Shown: positions 16,884 to 35,205 of the stretch, piece by piece
Layout: every line of letters starts with the position of its first letter
Numbering within the stretch: position 1 is the first letter of the stretch
From: Betaproteobacteria bacterium
GTDB taxonomy: Bacteria > Pseudomonadota > Gammaproteobacteria > Burkholderiales > Burkholderiaceae_C
Assembly (NCBI GenBank): GCA_025360705.1
Contig: JANYBQ010000575.1
Location: 1-35,727, forward strand
Reading direction: 5' to 3'
DNA length: 35,727 nucleotides
Notes under the pieces: model-generated
What the model was told of the DNA's origin: nothing
The model's input: only the letters and a program-made list of their open reading frames with translations
Database searches by the model: none
Made by a program: the position numbers and the translations under genes

Positions 16884-17765
16884 TCATCCTTCGACTTCCA
16901 GTGGGCTGGCATCGGCTGCCACGGGACGCGGACCGCTGGCGCCAAACGGATAGACACCGCAACCCAGGCGCTGCGAGATGGCACGTGCCGCGTCGTGGAG
17001 CGCGTCGACCAACGCGGCCTCGTCCTCGGACGCTACATGGTGCGACGGAAACGCGAGCCCGAGCGCACCGACGATCCGCTGTCCTTCCTTGAACAACGGT
17101 ACCGACACCACGCCCAGGCCCAGCGAAGTCTCGTTGCGCTGGATGCTATAGCCGTCGCGGCGCACGGCCGCCACGAGTTTTTCGAGGGTGGCGCGGTCGC
17201 GTATCGTGTCTTTGGTGATTGGCGGTACCGGCAGGTCGAGCAGGTGTTCAGTGTGTTCGGCATCCAGGTAAGCCATCAGTACCCGCCCGGCTGAAGAAGC
17301 GCCGATAGGTACGCTGCTGGCGGAGCGCCAGCCGGTGTCCATGAACATCGGGCCTTCCAGGCCGATCAGATAAAGCGACTGGTCGCCGTCGGGGACCGAC
17401 AGCCGCACGCTGTGCCCGGTGCGGATCAGCAGTTCCCGCATAACCGGCGTGGCGGCCTGGCACAGGCTGTCATAGGTAGTAAAACGCGAACCCAGCACAT
17501 AACAGCGCTGGCCCACCGAATAGGCGCGGGTCGCCGGGTTTTGCACCACCAGGCCACTGTCCACCAGCGCGCTGAGTATCTTGGACACCTGGCTCTTGGA
17601 CAGGTCGCAGCGCTGCGCCAGCTCGGTGACACCGAAGTCGCGCTGGTTCTGTTCGAATTCCAGCAACACGCGCAAGCCGGTGCGTAACGACTTCATGGGC
17701 TCGTCGGCGGCAACCGGAGGCGCGCCGTCGAATACTGGCCTGGGACGCAACGCCGCCATATTCAT
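16884..17765 (-). CDS. IclR-family transcriptional regulator
   Basis: HTH FGVTELAQRCDLSKSQVSKILSALVDSGLVVQNPATRAYSVGQRCYVLG followed by IclR-type ligand domain (GHSVRLSVPDGDQSLYLIGLEG, YSIQRNETSLGLGVVSVPLF). Confidence 0.93.
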   Translation of the reverse strand: MNMAALRPRPVFDGAPPVAADEPMKSLRTGLRVLLEFEQNQRDFGVTELAQRCDLSKSQVSKILSALVDSGLVVQNPATRAYSVGQRCYVLGSRFTTYDSLCQAATPVMRELLIRTGHSVRLSVPDGDQSLYLIGLEGPMFMDTGWRSASSVPIGASSAGRVLMAYLDAEHTEHLLDLPVPPITKDTIRDRATLEKLVAAVRRDGYSIQRNETSLGLGVVSVPLFKEGQRIVGALGLAFPSHHVASEDEAALVDALHDAARAISQRLGCGVYPFGASGPRPVAADASPLEVEG

Positions 17766-22627: not shown

Positions 22628-23377
22628 TCAGGCGCGCGGAATCTGCGACAACAGGCTGTGTACCAGGCCGCCATCGACACCGAGGTCCTGACCATGGATG
22701 TAGCTTGAGGCATCGGAGGCCAGGAACATCACCGCATTGGCGATATCTTCGACCGAACCGAGGCGGCGCAGCGGCACCGCGTTGGTCCGGAGCTCGCGTA
22801 TTTTTGTATTCGCGAAAACCGCTGTGCTCATGCCGCCATCCACAAAACCGGGCGAGACCGAATTCACGCGCACACCGTATTGGCCCAGTTCGAGCGCGAG
22901 CAATTTGGTCAGCACCACCAGGCCTCCCTTGGCCGCCGCATAGGCGTTGGTGCCCAGGCTTGGCGTGATGGCGTTGATGGACGAGATACTGACGATATTG
23001 CCGTGGCCGCGTTCGCGCATGCCCCGGCCAACGGCGCGCGAAAGTATGTAGGCGCCCACCAGGTCGACGTCGAGAACGCGGCGAAAGTCCTCCACGCTGA
23101 TGTCCAGCAAATGGCCAAACTTGACGATGCCCGCGTTGTTGACCAACAGGTCTGGCGTGCCGCCGAGCGTTGCAAGCGCGGCGTCGACGGCTTTTTCGTC
23201 GGTCACGTCGCAGGGCAGCGCGATCGCGTCACCGAGCTGGGACGCCATGGCGCGCGCGGCTTCGGCGTTGGCATCCATGACGCCGACGCGGTACCCGGCC
23301 CGGCGCGCCGCCGCGGCAATCGCAGCACCGATACCGTTGCCGGCGCCGGTAACAAGAGCTAGTTTTTGGGCCATCAA
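22628..23377 (-). CDS. Short-chain dehydrogenase/reductase
   Basis: MAQKLALVTGAGNGIGAAIAAAARRAGYRVGVMDANAEAA; NNAGIV; YAAAK; IHGQDLGVDGG. Start 23377 or 23374. Confidence 0.92.
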   Translation of the reverse strand: MMAQKLALVTGAGNGIGAAIAAAARRAGYRVGVMDANAEAARAMASQLGDAIALPCDVTDEKAVDAALATLGGTPDLLVNNAGIVKFGHLLDISVEDFRRVLDVDLVGAYILSRAVGRGMRERGHGNIVSISSINAITPSLGTNAYAAAKGGLVVLTKLLALELGQYGVRVNSVSPGFVDGGMSTAVFANTKIRELRTNAVPLRRLGSVEDIANAVMFLASDASSYIHGQDLGVDGGLVHSLLSQIPRA

Positions 23378-24744
23378 TGGGATTCGTTACCACCTACGGG
23401 TGTGCCGCCACGGGCCTGTTGCACGATCGACTGGGTGAGGATTCTGCCGAAGTCATGGGTGCGCCATTCGGCCATCGGTTTGCGTTCCGGCTCAACGCGT
23501 GTCAGGTCGATCGACTTGCCGCCCAGCATCACCATGCGCAGCTTGTCGCGCCGACCCAGCACCGTGATGTCGCGCGATGGGTCGCCGTCTACCACGATCA
23601 GATCGGCCAGCCGTCCGGCTTCGAGCGTACCGACCTGGTCCTTCATGCGTAACGCAAGTGCGCCGGACCGGGTGCCGCAACTGATGGCCTCGAGCGGCGT
23701 CAGGCCCAAATGCCTGATAAAGACTTCCATCTCGCGGTAGTGCCAGTCGCCATAAGGCGTGACCGAAAACCCCGACTCGGTGCCGCACACCATCGGCACT
23801 CCGGCCTTGAAGGCCTTGTAGAACATTTTGGCGCTGCCTGCAATTTCCTTGCGAAAAATGTCCTGCATTACCGGGCTGGCATGGATGGCGTCGCCGAACT
23901 CCATCAGGTTGGCCTGGAAGGTCAGGGCGGGCACGATAAAGGCCTTGTGCTTGAGCAGAGCCTCAAGTGCGGGCTCGTCCATCTGGGTGGCATGGATGAT
24001 TTGGTCGAAGCCCGCTTCGCAGGCCACCTTGATCGCCTTGGCACCGCGGCAATGGCCAGCCACGGGTATGCCGAAGTCGTGCGCCAGATCGCAGATCGTG
24101 CGCAGCTCTTCCACGGTGAAGGTGACGAATTCGCCCTCGCTGCGGCGGTGCGCAAAAGAACCGGTCACATGCACCTTGATCCAGTCGCAGCCGATCTTGA
24201 TCTGGCGCCGTACTTCGGCCACGATCTCGTCCTTGCCGCGCACCATGCGTGCATAGGCCATGGTGCCGGTGTCAGGCATCAACCGCCCTGCCGCGCCACC
24301 GACCGAAGTCATGAGCGCATAACCGCCCACCGCCATGCGCGGACCTTCAATCACACCCGACTGGACAGCTTCTTTCAAGTCAACGCCCAGATCGAACAGC
24401 GAATCGGCGTCGAAGAAACCGGTGACACCGGCCGTCAGCATATGGCGTATATTGCGCACCGCCGTAATCGCCGCCATGCCGGGTCGCCGATGGTAGAAAA
24501 GTTCGTCATGCCCGGCGGCATCATCGAACGTGCAGTGCACATGGCCATCTATCAGTCCAGGCATGACCGACAGGCCGCTGGCGTCGAAACGCGGCACGTT
24601 GTCCAGCCGCGCAGCCGCGGTCTCGGCCGCATGGCCCACAGCCTGGATTCGCTCCCCATCGATCAGCAGCGAGCCCTTGCGCGCGGCGGCTCCGGTACCG
24701 TCGATGATGTTGGCGTTTTGAATCAGGAGATTTTGGTTAGGCAT
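23374..24744 (-). CDS. Amidohydrolase-family protein (imidazolonepropionase-like metal-dependent hydrolase)
   Basis: LLIQNANIIDGTGAAARKGSLLIDGERIQAVG, MPGLIDGHVHCTF (HxH), DWIKVHVTGSF, VAGHCRGAKAIKVACEAGFDQIIHA, GTLEAGRLADLIVVDGDP. Confidence 0.93.
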   Translation of the reverse strand: MPNQNLLIQNANIIDGTGAAARKGSLLIDGERIQAVGHAAETAAARLDNVPRFDASGLSVMPGLIDGHVHCTFDDAAGHDELFYHRRPGMAAITAVRNIRHMLTAGVTGFFDADSLFDLGVDLKEAVQSGVIEGPRMAVGGYALMTSVGGAAGRLMPDTGTMAYARMVRGKDEIVAEVRRQIKIGCDWIKVHVTGSFAHRRSEGEFVTFTVEELRTICDLAHDFGIPVAGHCRGAKAIKVACEAGFDQIIHATQMDEPALEALLKHKAFIVPALTFQANLMEFGDAIHASPVMQDIFRKEIAGSAKMFYKAFKAGVPMVCGTESGFSVTPYGDWHYREMEVFIRHLGLTPLEAISCGTRSGALALRMKDQVGTLEAGRLADLIVVDGDPSRDITVLGRRDKLRMVMLGGKSIDLTRVEPERKPMAEWRTHDFGRILTQSIVQQARGGTPVGGNESH

Positions 24745-24764: not shown

Positions 24765-24805
24765 TCCCATATGGAAACTGTATTTCCGATATGGAACTAA
24801 GTCAA
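24765..24805 (-). promoter_or_regulatory. Minus-strand promoter for the amidohydrolase operon with twin IclR-like operator half-repeats
   Basis: Revcomp TTGACT (24800-24805), 17 nt, TACAGT (24777-24782). TCCCATATGGAAA (24765-24777) and TCCGATATGGAAC (24785-24797) are 20 bp apart, the latter inside the -35/-10 spacer. Confidence 0.5.
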
Positions 24806-24814
24806 GTAACTTGG

Positions 24815-24827
24815 GAAACTTTGTTTC
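24815..24827. promoter_or_regulatory. Inverted repeat GAAAC-TTT-GTTTC, candidate regulator site
   Basis: Perfect 5-bp arms, 3-nt spacer, located where the -35 of the plus-strand promoter would be. Confidence 0.35.
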
Positions 24828-24846
24828 TCTTTAATGGAATTCTACT

Positions 24847-24852
24847 TATAAT
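24847..24852 (+). promoter_or_regulatory. Candidate -10 box for the plus-strand Rieske operon
   Basis: Exact TATAAT; no good TTGACA at 16-18 bp upstream. Confidence 0.4.
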
Positions 24853-24876
24853 TCGATAACCACAATATCGGGGTAC

Positions 24877-24924
24877 CGTCGTTTGCCTCGTCGTTTGCCT
24901 CGTCGTTTACTTCGTCGTTTACCG
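24877..24924 (+). repeat. Four tandem 12-bp repeats, CGTCGTTTGCCT
   Basis: CGTCGTTTGCCT / CGTCGTTTGCCT / CGTCGTTTACTT / CGTCGTTTACCG read directly. Confidence 0.95.
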
Positions 24925-24998
24925 ACTAGTTAATTTTGAGCCTTACAGACGCAGTTCCTGTCACGCAAACGAAGCGTGGCCTTTTCAAGGATGACAGC

Positions 24999-26249
24999 AT
25001 GGCCCAGTCCCTCTATGAGAAAGAGCAGATCGCACAGATGGTGCACCGCGCCGTGCAACACGCGACCGCCGGCACCACCGACTCCACCGATGAAATTTAC
25101 CGTCTGCCGGTCGAGTTGTACAGCCCGCGCAGCTGGGACGAGGAAATGAACGCTATCTTCCGCCGCCTGCCTTTGATGCTGGGATTGAGCACCGAGATGC
25201 GTGCGGCCGGAGACTACAAGGCGATGAAAGTGCTGGACGTTCCGGTGTTGATGGTGCGGGGTGAAGACATGCGTATGCGCGCCTTCATCAACGCCTGCCG
25301 GCATCGCGGTCGTGCGGTAACGCAGACCAGCGAAGAAAGTGGACAGGTGCGCAGTTTCGTGTGCCCGTACCATGCCTGGCGCTTCGGCACCGATGGCGCG
25401 TTGCTGTCGGTTGCCGACCCGCGCAAGTTCGGCGAGGTGGACAAGAGCCAGCGCGGCCTGGTCGAACTGCCGTGTGAGGAACGCGTCGGTTTCATCTGGG
25501 TCTGCATCACCCCGGGCCTGCGTTTCGATTTGACCGAATATCTGGGCGGCATGCTCGACGAGTTGACCTGCCTGGAGGCCGACAAGTGGTTCTTGCACGG
25601 CACGTCCAGGCTTGAAAGCGCCAACTGGAAAATTACCCATGACGGGTATCTGGAGAGTTACCACATCCCCTTCCTGCACCGCGACACCTTGTCCAAGTTC
25701 TGGAACCGTGAGAGCGCGAGTTCGGTGTCCCTGTACGACGCGTTCGGTCCGCTTGCCTGCGGTCCGCACCAGCGCATGGCCGGCAATGCCTGGGGTAACG
25801 ACCCGGTGCTGATGGGCCGCATGAAGGATGTGCCCGAGTCGGAGTACACGGAGAAGCACTTCCATGCCGTGCGGACCCTTTTTCCGCACATCTCGATCTC
25901 GGCCGACAAGAACGGGGGCATGGTGTCTCAGCTATTTCCGGTGGCGTCCGACCGATGTATCACGATACAGAACCACGTCAACCCACGGGATCCGGCCACT
26001 TATACGGCTGAAGAAGCCGATGCGATGCAAAAACGCATAGTGCTTTACGCGCAAATAGTGCGCGACGAGGACTACAGCGCCAGTTTCAGTATCCAGGAGG
26101 GTCTGAATTCCGGTGCAAATCAAGAAATGTTGTTCGGCCGCAATGAAGGCGGTGCGCAGAACTTCCACCGTTCGGTGGCGCACTACGTGCAGGCCTACCG
26201 CCAGATCCAGCCCAAACGCGTCATCGCCATCCAGGGAGCACAAGCATGA
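24999..26249 (+). CDS. Rieske-type aromatic-ring-hydroxylating oxygenase, alpha subunit
   Basis: Rieske motif CRHRGRAVTQTSEESGQVRSFVCPYH; mononuclear iron motif NWKITHDGYLESYHIPFLH. Start ATG 24999 with AAGGA; the ORF-track start at 24936 is TTG. Confidence 0.93.
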   Translation: MAQSLYEKEQIAQMVHRAVQHATAGTTDSTDEIYRLPVELYSPRSWDEEMNAIFRRLPLMLGLSTEMRAAGDYKAMKVLDVPVLMVRGEDMRMRAFINACRHRGRAVTQTSEESGQVRSFVCPYHAWRFGTDGALLSVADPRKFGEVDKSQRGLVELPCEERVGFIWVCITPGLRFDLTEYLGGMLDELTCLEADKWFLHGTSRLESANWKITHDGYLESYHIPFLHRDTLSKFWNRESASSVSLYDAFGPLACGPHQRMAGNAWGNDPVLMGRMKDVPESEYTEKHFHAVRTLFPHISISADKNGGMVSQLFPVASDRCITIQNHVNPRDPATYTAEEADAMQKRIVLYAQIVRDEDYSASFSIQEGLNSGANQEMLFGRNEGGAQNFHRSVAHYVQAYRQIQPKRVIAIQGAQA

Positions 26250-26827
26250 CCATCCCCAGCCGCGTAGCCGCATCGGCCGAACGCACGCTTGAGAGCCGTC
26301 TGGCCGAGGTCGAGGACCGCACCGCCATCCGTGAACTGACCGCGCGCTACAACTTTGCCATCGACGACCGGGACCTGAAAACCGTGGGCGAGCTATTTAC
26401 GGATGATGGCTCGTTCGGATCGAAGGACGGTGCCATGCGCGCCACCGGCCGCGAAGCCATCCTGAAACAGTTCGAAAGCCGTTTCAGCGTGCTGGGCGCC
26501 ACCAACCACTTCGCGCACGACCATGCGATCTGGTTCGAAAGCGGCACCCGTGCGCGTGGCCTGTTGTCGATACATGCCGAAGTGTGGCGCAAGGAGCAGC
26601 CCATGGTGACGGCGCTGCGTTACGACGACGTCTATGAAAAGTCCGGTGGCTTGTGGCGTTTTGCCGAACGCTTGCTGTCTTTCTTCTACTACCTCAACGT
26701 AAAAGACTACCCTGCGGCGATGGGCACGCTGGAGCGTAACCATGGGTCCGACAAACCGGTTGCGGCGGACTATCCGGAACGGCTGTCCACTTACGTCGAG
26801 CTGCGGCCCGGCAAGTCGAAACCGTGA
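26246..26827 (+). CDS. SnoaL/NTF2-like protein, possible oxygenase small subunit (copy 1)
   Basis: EVEDRTAIRELTARYNFAIDDRDLKTVGELFTDDGSF typical of SnoaL-like domains; ATGA overlap with Rieske alpha gene. Confidence 0.85.
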   Translation: MTIPSRVAASAERTLESRLAEVEDRTAIRELTARYNFAIDDRDLKTVGELFTDDGSFGSKDGAMRATGREAILKQFESRFSVLGATNHFAHDHAIWFESGTRARGLLSIHAEVWRKEQPMVTALRYDDVYEKSGGLWRFAERLLSFFYYLNVKDYPAAMGTLERNHGSDKPVAADYPERLSTYVELRPGKSKP

Positions 26828-26971
26828 ACCTGAAGGAGCCACACCACCAGTATCCACAGAGCATGTTTCAAACCGGCGCTCGGGGGACTATTCGCTTGGC
26901 GCGGAGGCTGGATTTTAGTAGTATCGGATGGGATGCCTGCCGGCATCATCAAAATCAAACAGGAGACAGTT

Positions 26972-28099
26972 ATGAGAGTCAAACCACAAGTCCTGGCGCT
27001 GCTGTTAGCCAGTGCCGTTGTGAGCCCTCTGCGCGCTGGCGCGGCGGAATTTACCATCGCTTCGGTCAAGGCACTTACCGGCCCGCTGGCTTTCGTCGGT
27101 GTGCCTGAAGCCAACGCCGTGAAGATGGCGGTTGATGAGCTGAACGCCGCCAACTATCTCGGCGCGGGCAACTCCATCAAGCTGATCTCGAACGACGACC
27201 AGAACGACCGCGCGCAACTGACCACGCTGCTCACGCGCGCGGCAAAAGTCGACAACGCGTTGATCGTGCTCGGCGGCGCCAACAGCGTTCTCATGATTGC
27301 AGTGGCGCCACTGCTAAATGACCTGCAGATCCCGATGTTCGCGACGGCCCAGACGGCCGCTCCACTGGCTGCCACCAAGTGGTACCTGAAGGTTACGGCG
27401 TCGTCCGAACTTCAGGTCGCTCCGCTGGCCCAATATGCCATCGACAAGGTCAAGCCCCAGCGCCTCGCGGCCATCTGGGGGCGTGACAACGATGGCCACA
27501 TCAACAACATGAAGGCCTTCATGGGGCCGCTTGGTGCAAAGGGTTTCAAACCTATCGCCGAGGAAACGATCCTGATCTCGGACACCGACTTCGGTGCGGT
27601 ATCCACCAAGATCGCCGCGTCCAAGCCCGATGCAATTTGGCTTGGGTCGAATGCGGCACAGGCGGCCAACCTGGTGATCCAGTTGAAGCAGGCCGGCGTA
27701 TCCCCCAATACGGCCTTTTTCGGTACAGCGGGTCTGGGTGCCGACTACCTCAAGATCGGCGGCAAAGCAGTGGATAACACCTATTTCTCGACCGACTTCA
27801 ACGACCAGTCCACGGCAGCGCTGAATGTCAAGTTCGTCGAGAACTACAAGAAGCTGTTCAACACGGCACCCGACAACTGGGCCGCCGTCGGTTACTCGGA
27901 AGCTCTGCTCGCAGCCCGCGCGATCAAGGACTCGATGCCCAATCCGACCCGTGAAAAAGTGCTTGAGGCAATCATGAAACTGCGTGACGCCGACGTGGTG
28001 CTGGGTAACGGCAAGTGGACCCAGAAGCCCGACCGGATCCCCGAGTACGGCCCGGCCGTCATGGTGATCCGCAATAACAAGCCGGTTCCGGCCAACTGA
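26972..28099 (+). CDS. ABC transporter amino-acid/amide-type substrate-binding protein (set D)
   Basis: MRVKPQVLALLLASAVVSPLRAGAAEFTIASVKALTGPLAFVGVPEANAVKMAVDELNA; AGGAG before ATG 26972. Confidence 0.92.
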   Translation: MRVKPQVLALLLASAVVSPLRAGAAEFTIASVKALTGPLAFVGVPEANAVKMAVDELNAANYLGAGNSIKLISNDDQNDRAQLTTLLTRAAKVDNALIVLGGANSVLMIAVAPLLNDLQIPMFATAQTAAPLAATKWYLKVTASSELQVAPLAQYAIDKVKPQRLAAIWGRDNDGHINNMKAFMGPLGAKGFKPIAEETILISDTDFGAVSTKIAASKPDAIWLGSNAAQAANLVIQLKQAGVSPNTAFFGTAGLGADYLKIGGKAVDNTYFSTDFNDQSTAALNVKFVENYKKLFNTAPDNWAAVGYSEALLAARAIKDSMPNPTREKVLEAIMKLRDADVVLGNGKWTQKPDRIPEYGPAVMVIRNNKPVPAN

Positions 28100-28124
28100 T
28101 CCGCGTTGCCTATTGATGTTTTCA

Positions 28125-28158
28125 CGATTCACGCCAGCCTGAACGGTGTCGTGAATCG
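28125..28158 (+). other. Intercistronic stem-loop between substrate-binding protein and permease genes
   Basis: CGATTCACG (28125-28133) / CGTGAATCG (28150-28158), perfect 9-bp arms, 16-nt loop. Confidence 0.6.
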
Positions 28159-28263
28159 CGCAACTCTCCATAGTCAAGGGCAACCGCGCGCCGGGATGGC
28201 CGGCAACTCGAACCTTTCCGACTCCGCGGCCCCGGCGCTGCGCGTAACGAATATGGACCACGC

Positions 28264-29154
28264 ATGATTGCCCAGCAACTCGTCAATGGACTCGTCACCG
28301 GCTCGGTATATGCGCTGTTCGCGCTCGGATTTACGCTGATCTTCGGCACATTCAAGATTCTGAATCTTGCGCATGCCGGGGTATTCATGTCCGGTGCGTT
28401 CATCGGCTACTTCGCGGTACTGCATGGCCTGCCCCTCTGGTTGGCGCTGATACTCGCCATGGTCGGGGCGGGGCTGGTCTCCTATGTTGTCGAACTGGCC
28501 GCCTTCGCCACCATCCGCAACAGCGGCCAGATAGAGTTCGCCGCGTTGATCTCATCGATTGGCGCCAACCTCTGTCTGATGAGCGTTGCGCAGCGCCTGT
28601 CCAACACCAAGGTGCTACGTTTCCCGTTCGAGACCTTTCCGGTGGAGTTCTATGAGATCGGTCCGGTGCGTTTCTCCTTTCTGCAAATCACCATCCTGCT
28701 GGTGGTGATGGTGTTGCTGGCGGTGATGATGTTCTATCTTTACAAGACCAGCTTTGGGCGCCAGATTCGCGCGGTCAGCGGCAGTGAACGCGTCGCCTCC
28801 CTGCTCGGGGTCAACCCGGCGCTGGTGTATTTCCAGACCTTTTTCATTTCCGGGGCGCTGGCAGGAGTCGCCGGCATCATGATCGGGCTGTCGTTCAACT
28901 CCATCCATTTCTACATGGGCGAGCCCTACCTGCTTAAGGCCTTTGTGGTTGTGGTGCTGGGGGGCTTGGGGAGCGTGCACGGCGCGGTCGTCGCCGGAAT
29001 GTTGCTCGGCATCTTCCAGAATCTTGCGGTCGCCTACCTTCCGAGCGCATTGACCGAGACGATCATTTACGGATTGCTGTTCGTCGTGCTGCTGGTCAAG
29101 CCAAGCGGCCTGTTTGGCAGCGAGGGCGTCCAGGTGGGAGTGTCGCGGCGATGA
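28264..29154 (+). CDS. HAAT-family ABC transporter permease, LivH-like (set D)
   Basis: MIAQQLVNGLVTGSVYALFALGFTLIFGTFKILNLAHAGVFMSGAF. Confidence 0.93.
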   Translation: MIAQQLVNGLVTGSVYALFALGFTLIFGTFKILNLAHAGVFMSGAFIGYFAVLHGLPLWLALILAMVGAGLVSYVVELAAFATIRNSGQIEFAALISSIGANLCLMSVAQRLSNTKVLRFPFETFPVEFYEIGPVRFSFLQITILLVVMVLLAVMMFYLYKTSFGRQIRAVSGSERVASLLGVNPALVYFQTFFISGALAGVAGIMIGLSFNSIHFYMGEPYLLKAFVVVVLGGLGSVHGAVVAGMLLGIFQNLAVAYLPSALTETIIYGLLFVVLLVKPSGLFGSEGVQVGVSRR

Positions 29155-30044
29155 TGAACCTGATCTATACCTACCAGCCGCTGTTCGATTACTTTCTGCT
29201 GGCAGTGGGCTTTGCCTACAGCCAGCAGATGGTGCTGCGCGCCGGCGTGTTCTCGATCGGTTCGGCCGGCTTTGCTTCCATCGGTGCGTACAGCGTCGGC
29301 ATCCTGGTCAAGAATCACGGAGTGAACGCCATCGTCGCGCTGCTGCTTGCGACGATCATCGGCTGCATCGGCGGCTTCCTGCTGTCGATCCCGCTGGCGC
29401 GCCTGCGCGGCGTATTCCAGGCCATCGCCACGCTGGCCTTTGTTCAGATCGTGGTGTCGCTGTGCCTGTACTTCGACGGGCTGACGGGCGGTCCGCAAGG
29501 CTTCAACAATATTCCGAAGCTGGTGCAAACCTGGCACCTCGTGCTTGCGGTCCTGGTGACTATTTATTTCATGATCGTGATCAGCCGCTCGGCAATAGGC
29601 CGCGCTTTCGACGCGTTGCGTCAGGACGAAACCGTGGGCGCGACCCTTGGCATCTCGATCCGCAAGTACCACATGATCGCATTCGTATTAAGCGGCGCGC
29701 TGGCCGGCTTTTTTGGCGGGATGCAGAGCCTCTACACCTTCAGCATCGAGCCCGAGATGTTCGGCTTCGCCTTCCTGGTGGCCGCGCTTACCTACATCAT
29801 TCTCGGTGGCCGGGGCACCGTGACCGGGCCCATCATCGGCGCGGCCATTATGTCGCTGCTGCCGGAGCTGGCGCGGCCGCTGGCCGACAACCGCCAGTTC
29901 TTCCAGGGCGCGCTGATGATGGTGATGATCGCCTTCATGCCACACGGCGTGTACGACGGCCTGGTGCTTTACCTGCGCAAGCGGCGAGCCGCCGCGCGCG
30001 ACAAGATTTTCAAGGAGCGCACCAATGCCGTCACTGGTGCTTAG
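29151..30044 (+). CDS. HAAT-family ABC transporter permease, LivM-like (set D)
   Basis: FAYSQQMVLRAGVFSIGSAGFASIGAYSVGIL; ATGA overlap with LivH. Confidence 0.92.
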   Translation: MMNLIYTYQPLFDYFLLAVGFAYSQQMVLRAGVFSIGSAGFASIGAYSVGILVKNHGVNAIVALLLATIIGCIGGFLLSIPLARLRGVFQAIATLAFVQIVVSLCLYFDGLTGGPQGFNNIPKLVQTWHLVLAVLVTIYFMIVISRSAIGRAFDALRQDETVGATLGISIRKYHMIAFVLSGALAGFFGGMQSLYTFSIEPEMFGFAFLVAALTYIILGGRGTVTGPIIGAAIMSLLPELARPLADNRQFFQGALMMVMIAFMPHGVYDGLVLYLRKRRAAARDKIFKERTNAVTGA

Positions 30045-30786
30045 CAACGTCTCCAAGCGCTTTGGCGGACTGCTGGCGGTATCCGACGTCAACATGGAAG
30101 TTCCGCCCGGTCAGATCACCGGACTGATTGGCCCTAACGGCGCCGGCAAGACCACCGTGGTCAACATGATCACGGGTCTGCTGAAATTGACCACCGGCAG
30201 CGTCAAACTGGGTGAGCAGGACATCACTGAGGCACAGGCGCACGAGGTTGCGTTCGCCGGGGTGTCGCGCACCTTCCAGAATATCCGGCTGTTGCCCGAG
30301 GCGACGGTGCTGGAGAACGTGGTGATCGGTTTTCACGTGCATGTCAAGTCCTCCCTGTTCGCGCAGCTTGTCGGTCTGCCGTCGTCGCTGCGCGAGTCGC
30401 CACGATTGTTCGAACGCGGCAGGCAGCTGCTGGAACGCTTCGGCATGAGCCGCTATGCGGACCACCCGGCCGGCGGCCTTGCCTACGGCCACCAGCGCCG
30501 CGTGGAGATGATGCGCGCGGTAGCAACCGATCCGCAAATCCTGCTCCTTGACGAGCCGGTGGCGGGCATGAATGACGTCGAAGCCACCGAGCTCGGACAG
30601 GTGTTCAAGGAGCTGACTGCCAGCGGCATTGGTCTGCTGCTGATCGAACACAACATCCGCTTCGTGAACCAGCTTTGCCAGCAGGTGTACGTGCTGGATT
30701 CGGGCGCCATGATTGCCTCTGGCAGCCCACAGGAGGTGATGCACGATCCGGCCGTGGTCGCGGCCTATCTGGGTGGCAAGAAATGA
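30025..30786 (+). CDS. HAAT-family ABC transporter ATP-binding protein, LivG-like (set D)
   Basis: [54 protein letters not shown]. Confidence 0.93.
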   Translation: MPSLVLSNVSKRFGGLLAVSDVNMEVPPGQITGLIGPNGAGKTTVVNMITGLLKLTTGSVKLGEQDITEAQAHEVAFAGVSRTFQNIRLLPEATVLENVVIGFHVHVKSSLFAQLVGLPSSLRESPRLFERGRQLLERFGMSRYADHPAGGLAYGHQRRVEMMRAVATDPQILLLDEPVAGMNDVEATELGQVFKELTASGIGLLLIEHNIRFVNQLCQQVYVLDSGAMIASGSPQEVMHDPAVVAAYLGGKK

Positions 30787-31499
30787 TGCTGGAGGTGCGC
30801 GACCTGGCCGCCGCTTACTCCGGCATCGAAGCGCTGCGCGGCGTCAGCCTGCACATTGAAGCCGGTGAAATGGTGGCACTGATCGGTGCCAACGGCGCCG
30901 GCAAGTCGACTTTGCTCAATTGTCTGTCGGGGACGGTACGGCCGCGCCGAGGCTCGATCCGCTTCGAAGGCCATGAAATCGCCGGAATGAAGCCGCACCG
31001 TGTTGCGCGACAAGGCCTGTTGCAAGTGCCCGAGGGGCGCCAGATACTGGTCGATCTGACGATTGAGGAGAACTTGCAATTGGGCGAACTGGCGCGCGGC
31101 GCGCGGCCTTCCAATTACGGCTTGCGCGATGTGTACCAGCTGTTTCCGATACTGGAAGAACGCCGTACGCAACGCGGTGGAACGCTTTCCGGCGGCCAGC
31201 AGCAGATGCTCGCCATCGGGCGCGCGCTAATGGGTGGACCCAGGCTGCTGCTGCTCGACGAGCCAAGTCTCGGCCTGTCGCCGCTTATCACCGACCAGGT
31301 GTTCGAGGCACTGCGCGGCCTGAACGACACCGGCCTCACCATCCTGCTGGTGGAACAGAACGCCCACCGCGCCCTACAGGCCACCCAACGCGCCTACCTT
31401 CTGGAACACGGCGAACTGGCCTTCCAGGGCAATAGCTCCGACCTGATCAACGACGCAAAGGTCATCGCGCATTATCTCGGGCACTTGCCCACCGACTGA
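30783..31499 (+). CDS. HAAT-family ABC transporter ATP-binding protein, LivF-like (set D)
   Basis: MMLEVRDLAAAYSGIEALRGVSLHIEAGEMVALIGANGAGKSTLLNCLSG; LSGGQQQMLAIGRAL. Start trimmed from 30675 to 30783. Confidence 0.92.
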   Translation: MMLEVRDLAAAYSGIEALRGVSLHIEAGEMVALIGANGAGKSTLLNCLSGTVRPRRGSIRFEGHEIAGMKPHRVARQGLLQVPEGRQILVDLTIEENLQLGELARGARPSNYGLRDVYQLFPILEERRTQRGGTLSGGQQQMLAIGRALMGGPRLLLLDEPSLGLSPLITDQVFEALRGLNDTGLTILLVEQNAHRALQATQRAYLLEHGELAFQGNSSDLINDAKVIAHYLGHLPTD

Positions 31500-31527
31500 C
31501 TTCCAATATCTCCGAGAGGAAACGCAA

Positions 31528-32772
31528 ATGACTACGCTAAATGGAACGAATGGGCCGCTGCCGCTGGTTGCCGAGTTTGCGGCGATGATCGAAGGCAACA
31601 CCCAGATCCAGCGACACGATCTGTTTTCACGGCTTCGACGGGACCTGCCTATTTTTCGCAGCGAGCGGCTGGATGCCTGGGTCGTGTCGCGCTACGACGA
31701 CGTCAAAACCATCCTGTCGGGCAGTCAATTTCAACCGCCGCAGCAGGGCGCGGGCGCATCGGCTTTCGGACGCTCATTCATGCAGATGAACGGGCGTGAG
31801 CACGGCAAGAAAATTGGCGTGGTCGCGCGCGAAATGCGCTCGCCACGGTCGCTGCGCGAGAGGCTCAACGACATCGTATTCGAGATCGCGCGCGATCAAG
31901 CCGCCGCGCTGCCAATGGGTGAACCGATCGAGTTGCGCGAGCGTTACGCGGTGTGGGTGCCATTGTTGTCGATCACCGTGCTGACGGACTTGCCCGAAGC
32001 GGCTCGCTTCCGCGACTGGTACAGAACCATCGTGGCGGGGAGCACCTCCAGCATTACCAATCCAGCAGCCCGGGAGACCGCGTTCACGGCGCGCGAAGAG
32101 GTGCGTGTTTTCCTGGAACCCATCATCGACGCGCGGCGCCTGAAGCCGGGGAACGACCTTCTTTCCGACCTGGTGACCGCGGAATACGAAGGAAAGCCGA
32201 TTCCCCACGAGGAAATCGTGTCCAACATAATTTTCCTGCTGGCCGCGGGCGTGGAGACCACCGAAAGGGTGTTGACCAGCGTGCTTCGGCATGTCGCACT
32301 GGACCCCGTGGAATGGCAATGGTTGAAAGGCAATTACACCGACCCGGAATCGCTTGCAGCGTTTTGCGCCGAGGCGCTGCGCTTTTATCCACCCGTCAGC
32401 GCCAACATACGCACGGCATTGGAAGAGGTGGAGATGGCCGGTGTGACGATCCGGAGCGGGGAAAAAGTATGCGCGTTGAGTGTCTCGGGCAACTATGACG
32501 AGAACCATTTTCCCGCTGCGTCGCGGTTCGACCACAACCGTTTCATGGGTTCCAGCGAACGCCAATTCACCGGCGGAGGCGACATACTTTCATTCGGTGA
32601 TGGAACCCACCACTGCGTAGGCTCACGACTGGCCAAGGTAGAGATGACCCACGCCTTGACGGAGTTTCTTGCACGGGTCGGGCGTATCGAGTCGGTCGGA
32701 ACGCCGCCGGCAGGCGAAGGTTTTATCTTTCATTCGCCCGCGAAACTCCCGGTAATTCTGCATCCGGTCTGA
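31528..32772 (+). CDS. Cytochrome P450
   Basis: I-helix LLAAGVETTERV, ExxR in AEALRFYPPV, heme-ligand loop LSFGDGTHHCVGSRLAKVEM. Confidence 0.95.
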   Translation: MTTLNGTNGPLPLVAEFAAMIEGNTQIQRHDLFSRLRRDLPIFRSERLDAWVVSRYDDVKTILSGSQFQPPQQGAGASAFGRSFMQMNGREHGKKIGVVAREMRSPRSLRERLNDIVFEIARDQAAALPMGEPIELRERYAVWVPLLSITVLTDLPEAARFRDWYRTIVAGSTSSITNPAARETAFTAREEVRVFLEPIIDARRLKPGNDLLSDLVTAEYEGKPIPHEEIVSNIIFLLAAGVETTERVLTSVLRHVALDPVEWQWLKGNYTDPESLAAFCAEALRFYPPVSANIRTALEEVEMAGVTIRSGEKVCALSVSGNYDENHFPAASRFDHNRFMGSSERQFTGGGDILSFGDGTHHCVGSRLAKVEMTHALTEFLARVGRIESVGTPPAGEGFIFHSPAKLPVILHPV

Positions 32773-32819
32773 TGCCGCCTGAGGCAACAAAACATACCGG
32801 CACAACAAGGGGCATAAGC

Positions 32820-33398
32820 ATGACCATTCCCCGCCGCGTCGCCAGCACCGAGCGCTCTCTCGAGAGCCGCCTGACCGAGGTTGAAGACCGTACGGCGATA
32901 CGCGATCTGACCGCGCGCTACAACTTTGCCACCGATGACCGCGATTTGAAAACCGTGGTCGAGTTGTTCACCCACAACGCTTCGTTCGGATCAAAAGATG
33001 GCGCCATGCGGGCATCCGGCCGCGAAGCCATCATGAAAACATTGGAAAGCCGCTTCAACGTGCTGGGTGCCACCAACCACTTCGCGCACGACCATGCGAT
33101 CTGGTTCGAAAGCGGCACCCGCGCGCGGGGTCTGTTGTCGATACACGCCGAAGTGTGGCGCAAGGAGCAGCCCATGCTGACGGCGCTGCGCTATGACGAT
33201 GTATATGAAAAATCCGGCGGCTTGTGGTATTTTGCCGAGCGGCTGCTGTCTTACTTCTACTACCTCAACGTGAAGGACTACCCTGCGGCGATGGGCACGC
33301 TGGAACGCAACCACGCGTCCGGCATACCGGTCGCGGCGGACTATCCGGAACGGCTTTCCACCTACGTCGAGCTGCGGCCCGGCAAGGCGAGGGCATAA
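32820..33398 (+). CDS. SnoaL/NTF2-like protein (copy 2)
   Basis: MTIPRRVASTERSLESRLTEVEDRTAIRDLTARYNFATDDRDLKTV; nearly identical to copy 1. Start trimmed to ATG 32820. Confidence 0.87.
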   Translation: MTIPRRVASTERSLESRLTEVEDRTAIRDLTARYNFATDDRDLKTVVELFTHNASFGSKDGAMRASGREAIMKTLESRFNVLGATNHFAHDHAIWFESGTRARGLLSIHAEVWRKEQPMLTALRYDDVYEKSGGLWYFAERLLSYFYYLNVKDYPAAMGTLERNHASGIPVAADYPERLSTYVELRPGKARA

Positions 33399-33410
33399 AA
33401 CACAAAGTCC

Positions 33411-33442
33411 GCCGCACGGTTCTTCGGTAGCGCACGTGCGGC
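33411..33442 (+). other. Intercistronic stem-loop upstream of the flavoprotein gene
   Basis: GCCGCACG (33411-33418) / CGTGCGGC (33435-33442), perfect 8-bp arms, 16-nt loop. Confidence 0.55.
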
Positions 33443-33507
33443 AACGGGGCACGAGCACACGACGCATCGCATGCCAGGTCATTCTTTGCAACAAACAAGG
33501 AGCGTAC

Positions 33508-35205
33508 GTGGACACGCAATTGAAGCGAAAGATCGACACACTGGTGGTTGTGGGCGCGGGTTTGTCGGGTATCGCAACCGCTCTGGGCGCGGCGATGAAT
33601 GGGCTCAAAGTGGTGGTGCTGGAGTCTTCCGACATGGTGGGTGGCGCTGCCGCTTTTTCCGGCGGCCAGGTATGGGTGGGCGACAACCACGTGGCCCGAC
33701 GCGAAGGCCTGACCGACACCCCGGAACTTGCGGAGCAGTATGTGCGCCACATCGCACACGACCACCCGGAATATCTCGACGACGCCGCGATGCATCGCTG
33801 GCTCAAGGTTTCGCCGGTGGCCGTCAAGTACTGGGAAGACGTGGGTGCGATCCGCTGGACCCTCATCCCTGGCCTTGCCGACTACCACAACGAGGCACCT
33901 GGCGCGCAGCCCGCGGGACGCTACCTGACCAACGAATTGATCGATGGCACGGCTTTGGGTTCCTGGCGAGAAAAAATGCGCGTGAGCCCGTATTTCCCCG
34001 TGGGCACCACCTATGCCGAGATGTTCCTGAAGGGGCGGCGCATGACCAATGTGGACGGTAAAGAGTCCACCGGCGAAAGTGCCGCGGTGCAGGGTTTTGG
34101 CATGCCGGAGAACCCCGACAACAAGACCCGGCCGACGGCTGGCAAAGGTGATCCGCTGACCTTTGGACCAGGCGTGTTCGGCAGCTTTCTGGCCAAGGCA
34201 CTGCAGTACGACAACATCGAGATCCTGCTCCAGCACCCGGTAACGGAATTGTTGCGCGGCGCGGACAGCAAAGTCCACGGCGTGCGTGCGCAAGGCCCCC
34301 AGGGCGTGGTGGAGTTTTTGGGCACGGTGGTGCTGGCCACCAGCACCTACGATTGGGACCCGGAGCTGGTGCAGGAGCTCGTGGGTCTGGGGCCGGAGGA
34401 CTTTGGAAGCGTCGCGCCCCGCAGTATCAAGGGCGATGGCATACGGCTGGTGCGCGCGATAGGCGGGGCGGTTGTCAAGCTGCCCGCCACCTGCATTCCC
34501 ATGTTGCCCGGCTGGAAGACCGATGCCGGAGTCGGTTATGCCTACGGTCCCGACTACGCCATGCCGCACGCGATCATCGTGGACAGGACCGGCAAGCGTT
34601 ATTGCGATGACTCGTACTGGGTCGACATCGTCGCCAGGACCATGAACCCGGAGGACAAGCACCTGCCGTTCTATCTCGTCTTTGATGAGCAGCACCACCG
34701 CAAGTACGGTCTGGGCGCAACGCCGCCCGGTGGGCAATATCCCGAAGGCATGGTGGAGTCGGCAGCGACGCTTGAAGAACTTGGCACCAAACTGGGCATT
34801 GACGGTGCGCAACTGCAGAAGACTGCGGCGCGTTTCAGCGAGAGCGCGCTCCAAGGTCACGACCCGGATTTCGGGCGTGGCACGGTGGACTACATCCGGC
34901 GCTTCGCGGGCGACCCGAGCCACAAGCCAAACCCGGTGCTGGGCGCCATCGACACGGCACCATTCTTCGGTTTCCGGCTACGGTTTGTCGGTACCGGTAT
35001 CGGCTCCAGCGGCATACACATCGACGGAGACGGCCACGTGCTCGACACCCAGGGCCAGGCGATTCCCGGCTTGTACGCGGTGGGCTCCTGCGCCGCATAC
35101 ACCACCATGGGAACGGGCTACAACAGCGGATTTGCGCTGGGCCGCGGCCTGACCCAGGCCTACCAGGTCAGCCGGGAACTCGCCGGTCTTGCAGTCATGT
35201 CTTGA
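33508..35205 (+). CDS. FAD-dependent oxidoreductase of the fumarate reductase/3-ketosteroid-delta1-dehydrogenase type
   Basis: LVVVGAGLSGIATALGAAMNGLKVVVLESSDMVGGAAAFSGGQVWVGDN; C-terminal GLYAVGSCAAYTTMGTGYNSGFALGRGLTQAY. GTG start 33508 preceded by AAGGAG fits better than the upstream ATG at 33436. Confidence 0.88.
   Translation: MDTQLKRKIDTLVVVGAGLSGIATALGAAMNGLKVVVLESSDMVGGAAAFSGGQVWVGDNHVARREGLTDTPELAEQYVRHIAHDHPEYLDDAAMHRWLKVSPVAVKYWEDVGAIRWTLIPGLADYHNEAPGAQPAGRYLTNELIDGTALGSWREKMRVSPYFPVGTTYAEMFLKGRRMTNVDGKESTGESAAVQGFGMPENPDNKTRPTAGKGDPLTFGPGVFGSFLAKALQYDNIEILLQHPVTELLRGADSKVHGVRAQGPQGVVEFLGTVVLATSTYDWDPELVQELVGLGPEDFGSVAPRSIKGDGIRLVRAIGGAVVKLPATCIPMLPGWKTDAGVGYAYGPDYAMPHAIIVDRTGKRYCDDSYWVDIVARTMNPEDKHLPFYLVFDEQHHRKYGLGATPPGGQYPEGMVESAATLEELGTKLGIDGAQLQKTAARFSESALQGHDPDFGRGTVDYIRRFAGDPSHKPNPVLGAIDTAPFFGFRLRFVGTGIGSSGIHIDGDGHVLDTQGQAIPGLYAVGSCAAYTTMGTGYNSGFALGRGLTQAYQVSRELAGLAVMS

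Follow-up and report, generated by a model that had tools for sequence, protein, structure and literature searches.

A four-unit 12-bp tandem array between a conserved promoter region and a Rieske oxygenase gene, probably a lineage-specific product of slippage

Repeat number is known to tune bacterial promoters and leaders (PMC3899988, PMC3894217, PMC12817950). In the pil1 locus of Streptococcus gallolyticus, 22 five-base GCAGA repeats alter the reading frame of a leader peptide that precedes a terminator (PMC3894217), and the promoter tandem repeats of M. tuberculosis consist of units of 54-58 bp that carry the promoter itself (PMC12817950). The array described here resembles both in its location between the promoter region and the start codon. 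However, its 12-bp unit is frame-neutral and its leader has no terminator-like site, which distinguishes it from pil1 (PMC3894217), and it also differs in unit length from the promoter-bearing 54-58 bp units of M. tuberculosis (PMC12817950). In its head-to-tail units of some 12 bp, whose identity decays, it is similar to bacterial minisatellites and VNTR-type intergenic repeats, but it comprises only about four copies.

The window, i.e., the whole stretch of 35,727 nucleotides analysed (contig JANYBQ010000575.1 of a Betaproteobacteria bacterium), contains the array on the plus strand at 24877-24924: copies 1 and 2 (24877-24888 and 24889-24900) are identical and each read CGTCGTTTGCCT, followed by two diverged units, copy 3 (24901-24912, CGTCGTTTACTT) and copy 4 (24913-24924, CGTCGTTTACCG). 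These units are exactly those given in the initial annotation. TRF reported the array at 24877-24920 (3.7 copies, 93% matches) with a score of 74, the highest among the 18 TRF rows of the window; TRF thus trims copy 4, whose last bases may belong to the flank. Across 100 shuffles of the window that kept its dinucleotide composition, the best TRF score averaged 44.6 and did not exceed 65 (0/100 reached 74), so the array is a genuine tandem duplication with adjacent head-to-tail units beyond chance. A gross assembly collapse is unlikely, since the repeat, with 48 bp in total, fits within a single short read. The motif TACCG is present on both edges of the array (24874-24878 and 24920-24924, 46 bp apart), possibly by chance.

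The first gene 3' of the array encodes a Rieske/ring-hydroxylating oxygenase alpha subunit of 416 aa (24999-26249, plus strand; Pfam PF00848 and PF00355), with AAGGA upstream of an ATG whose position is kept in the orthologs, and is followed by genes for a SnoaL-like protein, a branched-chain amino-acid-type ABC transporter and a P450. On the other side lies a divergent amidohydrolase of 456 aa (23374-24744, minus strand; PF01979), which is also the neighbour in three orthologous loci (L038, L039 and L041) and is missing from L040 and L042 within the compared stretch. The Pfam assignments thus agree with the gene neighbourhood, a Rieske oxygenase operon, given in the initial annotation. The two genes sit in a large divergent catabolic cluster (1468-24744 on the minus strand and 24999-35205 on the plus strand), comprising several branched-chain-amino-acid-type ABC transporters, SDR dehydrogenases, acyl-CoA ligase-like and MaoC-like proteins, the P450 and the Rieske oxygenase. 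A TATAAT at 24847-24852 (plus strand), which aligns gap-free with CACAAT of L038, is the probable -10 element of the oxygenase operon; its -35 partner is poor (TTTCTC at 17-bp spacing), and for lack of a good partner a sigma-70 scan did not list it. The array begins 24 bases after TATAAT and ends 74 bases before the ATG at 24999, close to the earlier estimates of about 25 and 75 bp. Together with the conserved promoter region, this arrangement suggests that the array is transcribed as part of the 5' leader, as had been proposed.

Rhodoferax and other Comamonadaceae yielded five orthologs of the oxygenase (L038-L042; 74-78% protein identity), and no further orthologs this close were present in 7 genomes of the genus or 401 of the family. 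The orthologous locus nearest to that of the window (L009, from genome G004 of the same genus) is identical over the first 600 bases to L038, the locus of a Rhodoferax MAG, and the window therefore probably derives from Rhodoferax or its GTDB equivalent. None of the five orthologs has the array upstream (0/5), i.e., the array does not behave as a conserved cis-regulatory element. From the distal operator to the -10 element the window and L038 match without gaps at 64 of 91 positions. The leader itself, from the -10 element to the ATG, is not conserved: with gaps, the window matches L038 at 70 of 112 positions (62%), a level that shuffled sequence also reaches (mean 61%). The distance from the proximal palindrome of the promoter region to the start codon is 178 bp in the window, 146 in L038 and 125.5 in L039, so that most of the added leader length can be put down to the extra array copies (36-48 bp).

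The host genome comprises 5.18 Mb in 701 contigs, and the array occupies a single locus in it, which suggests a local origin. The 12-mer search proposed at the outset yielded no second array, even when three units were searched with a tolerance of 3 mismatches, and the 12-mer CGTCGTTTRCYT occurs singly at 4 further places; with 7 matches in total (3 of them in the array) against 5 for a reversed control pattern, these single occurrences are at chance level. In a set of 61 genomes, a three-unit search that tolerated up to 3 mismatches hit the array locus and, with 3 mismatches, one further place, which lies in a genome of another family. When 401 genomes of the family, ours among them, were searched for the pattern, no further array of this kind turned up: the 400 others had no perfect two-unit match, and with up to 2 mismatches three of the 400 were hit once each, all at 2 mismatches. 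By inspection of these unannotated matches (L059, L061 and L062), we rejected them as relatives of the array: they look unrelated and apparently coding, those of L061 and L062 resembling each other and that of L059 being a different, CAGACGACG-type repeat. The array was not found in viral contigs (IMG/VR), and the intergenic region had no match in plasmids. A dispersed repeat family or mobile element was accordingly discarded, as the genome, 60 relatives and IMG/VR yielded no second array and plasmids no match to the intergenic region. In a sample of about 105 kb from other contigs of the same genome, all arrays scoring at least 74 look coding (unannotated), so that a non-coding array of this strength is not commonplace there.

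The four direct copies, in one orientation and at a constant 12-bp phase, might be taken as repeated sites in the leader for a DNA- or RNA-binding protein. We consider this quite improbable, since the array is missing from all orthologous leaders (L038-L042), a regulon would need a second array and none exists elsewhere in the genome, 12 bp is off the helical phase (10.5 bp), and the promoter is already occupied by a different, conserved pair of candidate operators (see below). A binding site shared across a regulon was likewise dismissed, the other occurrences of the 12-mer being single and at chance level.

The leader has a predicted folding energy of -39.3 kcal/mol, which equals that of its shuffles (z = 0.03), and we thus dropped the idea of a structured leader. 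Leaders built in silico with 1 to 8 copies left a predicted fraction of 0.34-0.35 of the Shine-Dalgarno sequence unpaired, as against 0.23 when the array was removed, and in them the start codon was predicted to be mostly open; an effect of copy number on the ribosome-binding site was rejected, because no change is predicted between 1 and 8 copies. These predictions bear indirectly on the possibility that the array is a variable-number tandem repeat which tunes oxygenase expression via leader length or structure. Its position between the probable -10 element and the ribosome-binding site, the identical and diverged copies that point to a past expansion, and the systems cited at the beginning all speak for such a role. 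Against it stand the constant Shine-Dalgarno exposure and the small number of copies, only about four, two of which have diverged (diverged copies lower slippage rates), and the oxygenase gene is catabolic, unlike the surface antigens that are usually phase-variable. On balance we regard a tuning repeat as unlikely.

A frame of 16 codons runs open through the array, from TTG 24883 to TAA 24931 (TTG-CCT-CGT-CGT..., translated as LPRRLPRRLLRRLPTS), and further downstream GCAAACGA (24965-24972, plus strand) is complementary, over all of its 8 nt, to the TCGTTTGC of copies 1 and 2. This anti-repeat sits within a hairpin (CACGC-AAACGAA-GCGTG, 24963-24979) just 5' of the Shine-Dalgarno sequence, and complementarity over 8 nt was reached in 2.5% of the shuffles of the downstream leader (P ~0.025). 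It is therefore conceivable, though very improbable, that a leader peptide or RNA pairing between array and GCAAACGA controls the downstream gene. The TTG start is unconvincing, with GGGG as its sole possible Shine-Dalgarno sequence; no terminator-like site occurs on the plus strand at 24859-24999, for which reason a leader-peptide attenuator was rejected; the fold is that of shuffled sequence; neither feature is conserved in the orthologs; and the single P value is weak because several features were tested. Hardly to be expected at all is the more elaborate scenario in which a recent, copy-number-variable repeat pairs with GCAAACGA in the hairpin before the Shine-Dalgarno sequence and thereby tunes a catabolic oxygenase in an environmental bacterium. 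In single-sequence folds, L038-L042 each show a hairpin of unrelated sequence near the corresponding place.

We favour the interpretation, with a probability of roughly 0.7, that the array is a short tandem repeat specific to its lineage, which arose by slippage in a rapidly evolving spacer and probably has no dedicated function. Most likely it represents an ordinary local stutter, because it is missing from the relatives and the control sites that are conserved adjoin the array and do not fall within it. A 12-bp stretch of the fast-evolving 5' leader, which separates the ribosome-binding site of the oxygenase from a conserved promoter probably under IclR control, would have been multiplied by local duplication or by replication slippage; the resulting array lengthens the spacer from the promoter region to the start codon and probably does little else. 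The stepwise expansion suggested by the initial annotation fits this scenario, its local origin being backed by the two identical and two diverged copies; a regulatory role, which the same annotation had considered, is not supported, given five array-free orthologs out of five, the unconserved leader, the shuffle-like fold and the constant Shine-Dalgarno exposure. Three observations run against a functionless array: its absence at 74-78% protein identity is compatible with a recently acquired function, non-coding arrays of this strength are not commonplace in the 105-kb sample, and the 8-nt anti-repeat is slightly above chance. As it stands, the array is one more short tandem repeat in bacterial intergenic DNA and carries little weight; if its copy number were variable and tied to expression, repeat-driven switching would extend from pathogen surface antigens to environmental catabolic operons.

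For the control of the operon, the conserved IclR-type operators are a more useful lead than the array. Two GGAAA-N4/5-TTTCC palindromes lie upstream of the array at 24765-24828, between the amidohydrolase and Rieske genes (GGAAACTGTATTTCC and GGAAACTTTGTTTC). The distal candidate operator (24765-24796) has the boxes TCC-CATAT-GGAAA-CTGTA-TTTCC-GATAT-GGAA, which alternate as TCC-N5-GGAAA-N5-TTTCC-N5-GGAA and so form a direct repeat (D3) with 20-bp spacing; the proximal palindrome, GGAAACTTTGTTTC(T), at 24814-24828, is about 40 bp from it and beside the -35 position. Both have counterparts in L038 (GGAAACAACGTTTCC / GGAAACTTGGTTTC) and L039 (GGAATAATTATTTC / GGAAAACACTATTTCC), the palindrome centres being 39.5-41 bp apart in all three loci, and the alternating palindromic boxes kept in L038 and L039 agree with IclR-type operators; in L040-L042 the palindromes are weak or absent. 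A survey of IclR-family sites described motifs of several alternating boxes as well as palindromes in tandem, spaced 18-22 nt from each other (PMC8222616). The boxes of the window, i.e., sequence adjoining the array and not the array itself, resemble these in their alternating direction, half-site steps of about 10 bp and 20-bp repeat, but their cores (GGAAA/TTTCC) deviate somewhat from the two published consensuses and the second palindrome lies farther off, at 40 bp instead of 18-22 (PMC8222616). The presence of an IclR gene in the cluster fits this likeness: an IclR-family regulator (16884-17765, minus strand; PF01614 and PF09339) is the candidate owner of the operators and probably controls the promoter. 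Its linkage to the oxygenase is kept in Rhodoferax lacus, where a single contig carries both genes about 7.1 kb apart and oriented to each other as in the window, in which the distance is 7.2 kb.
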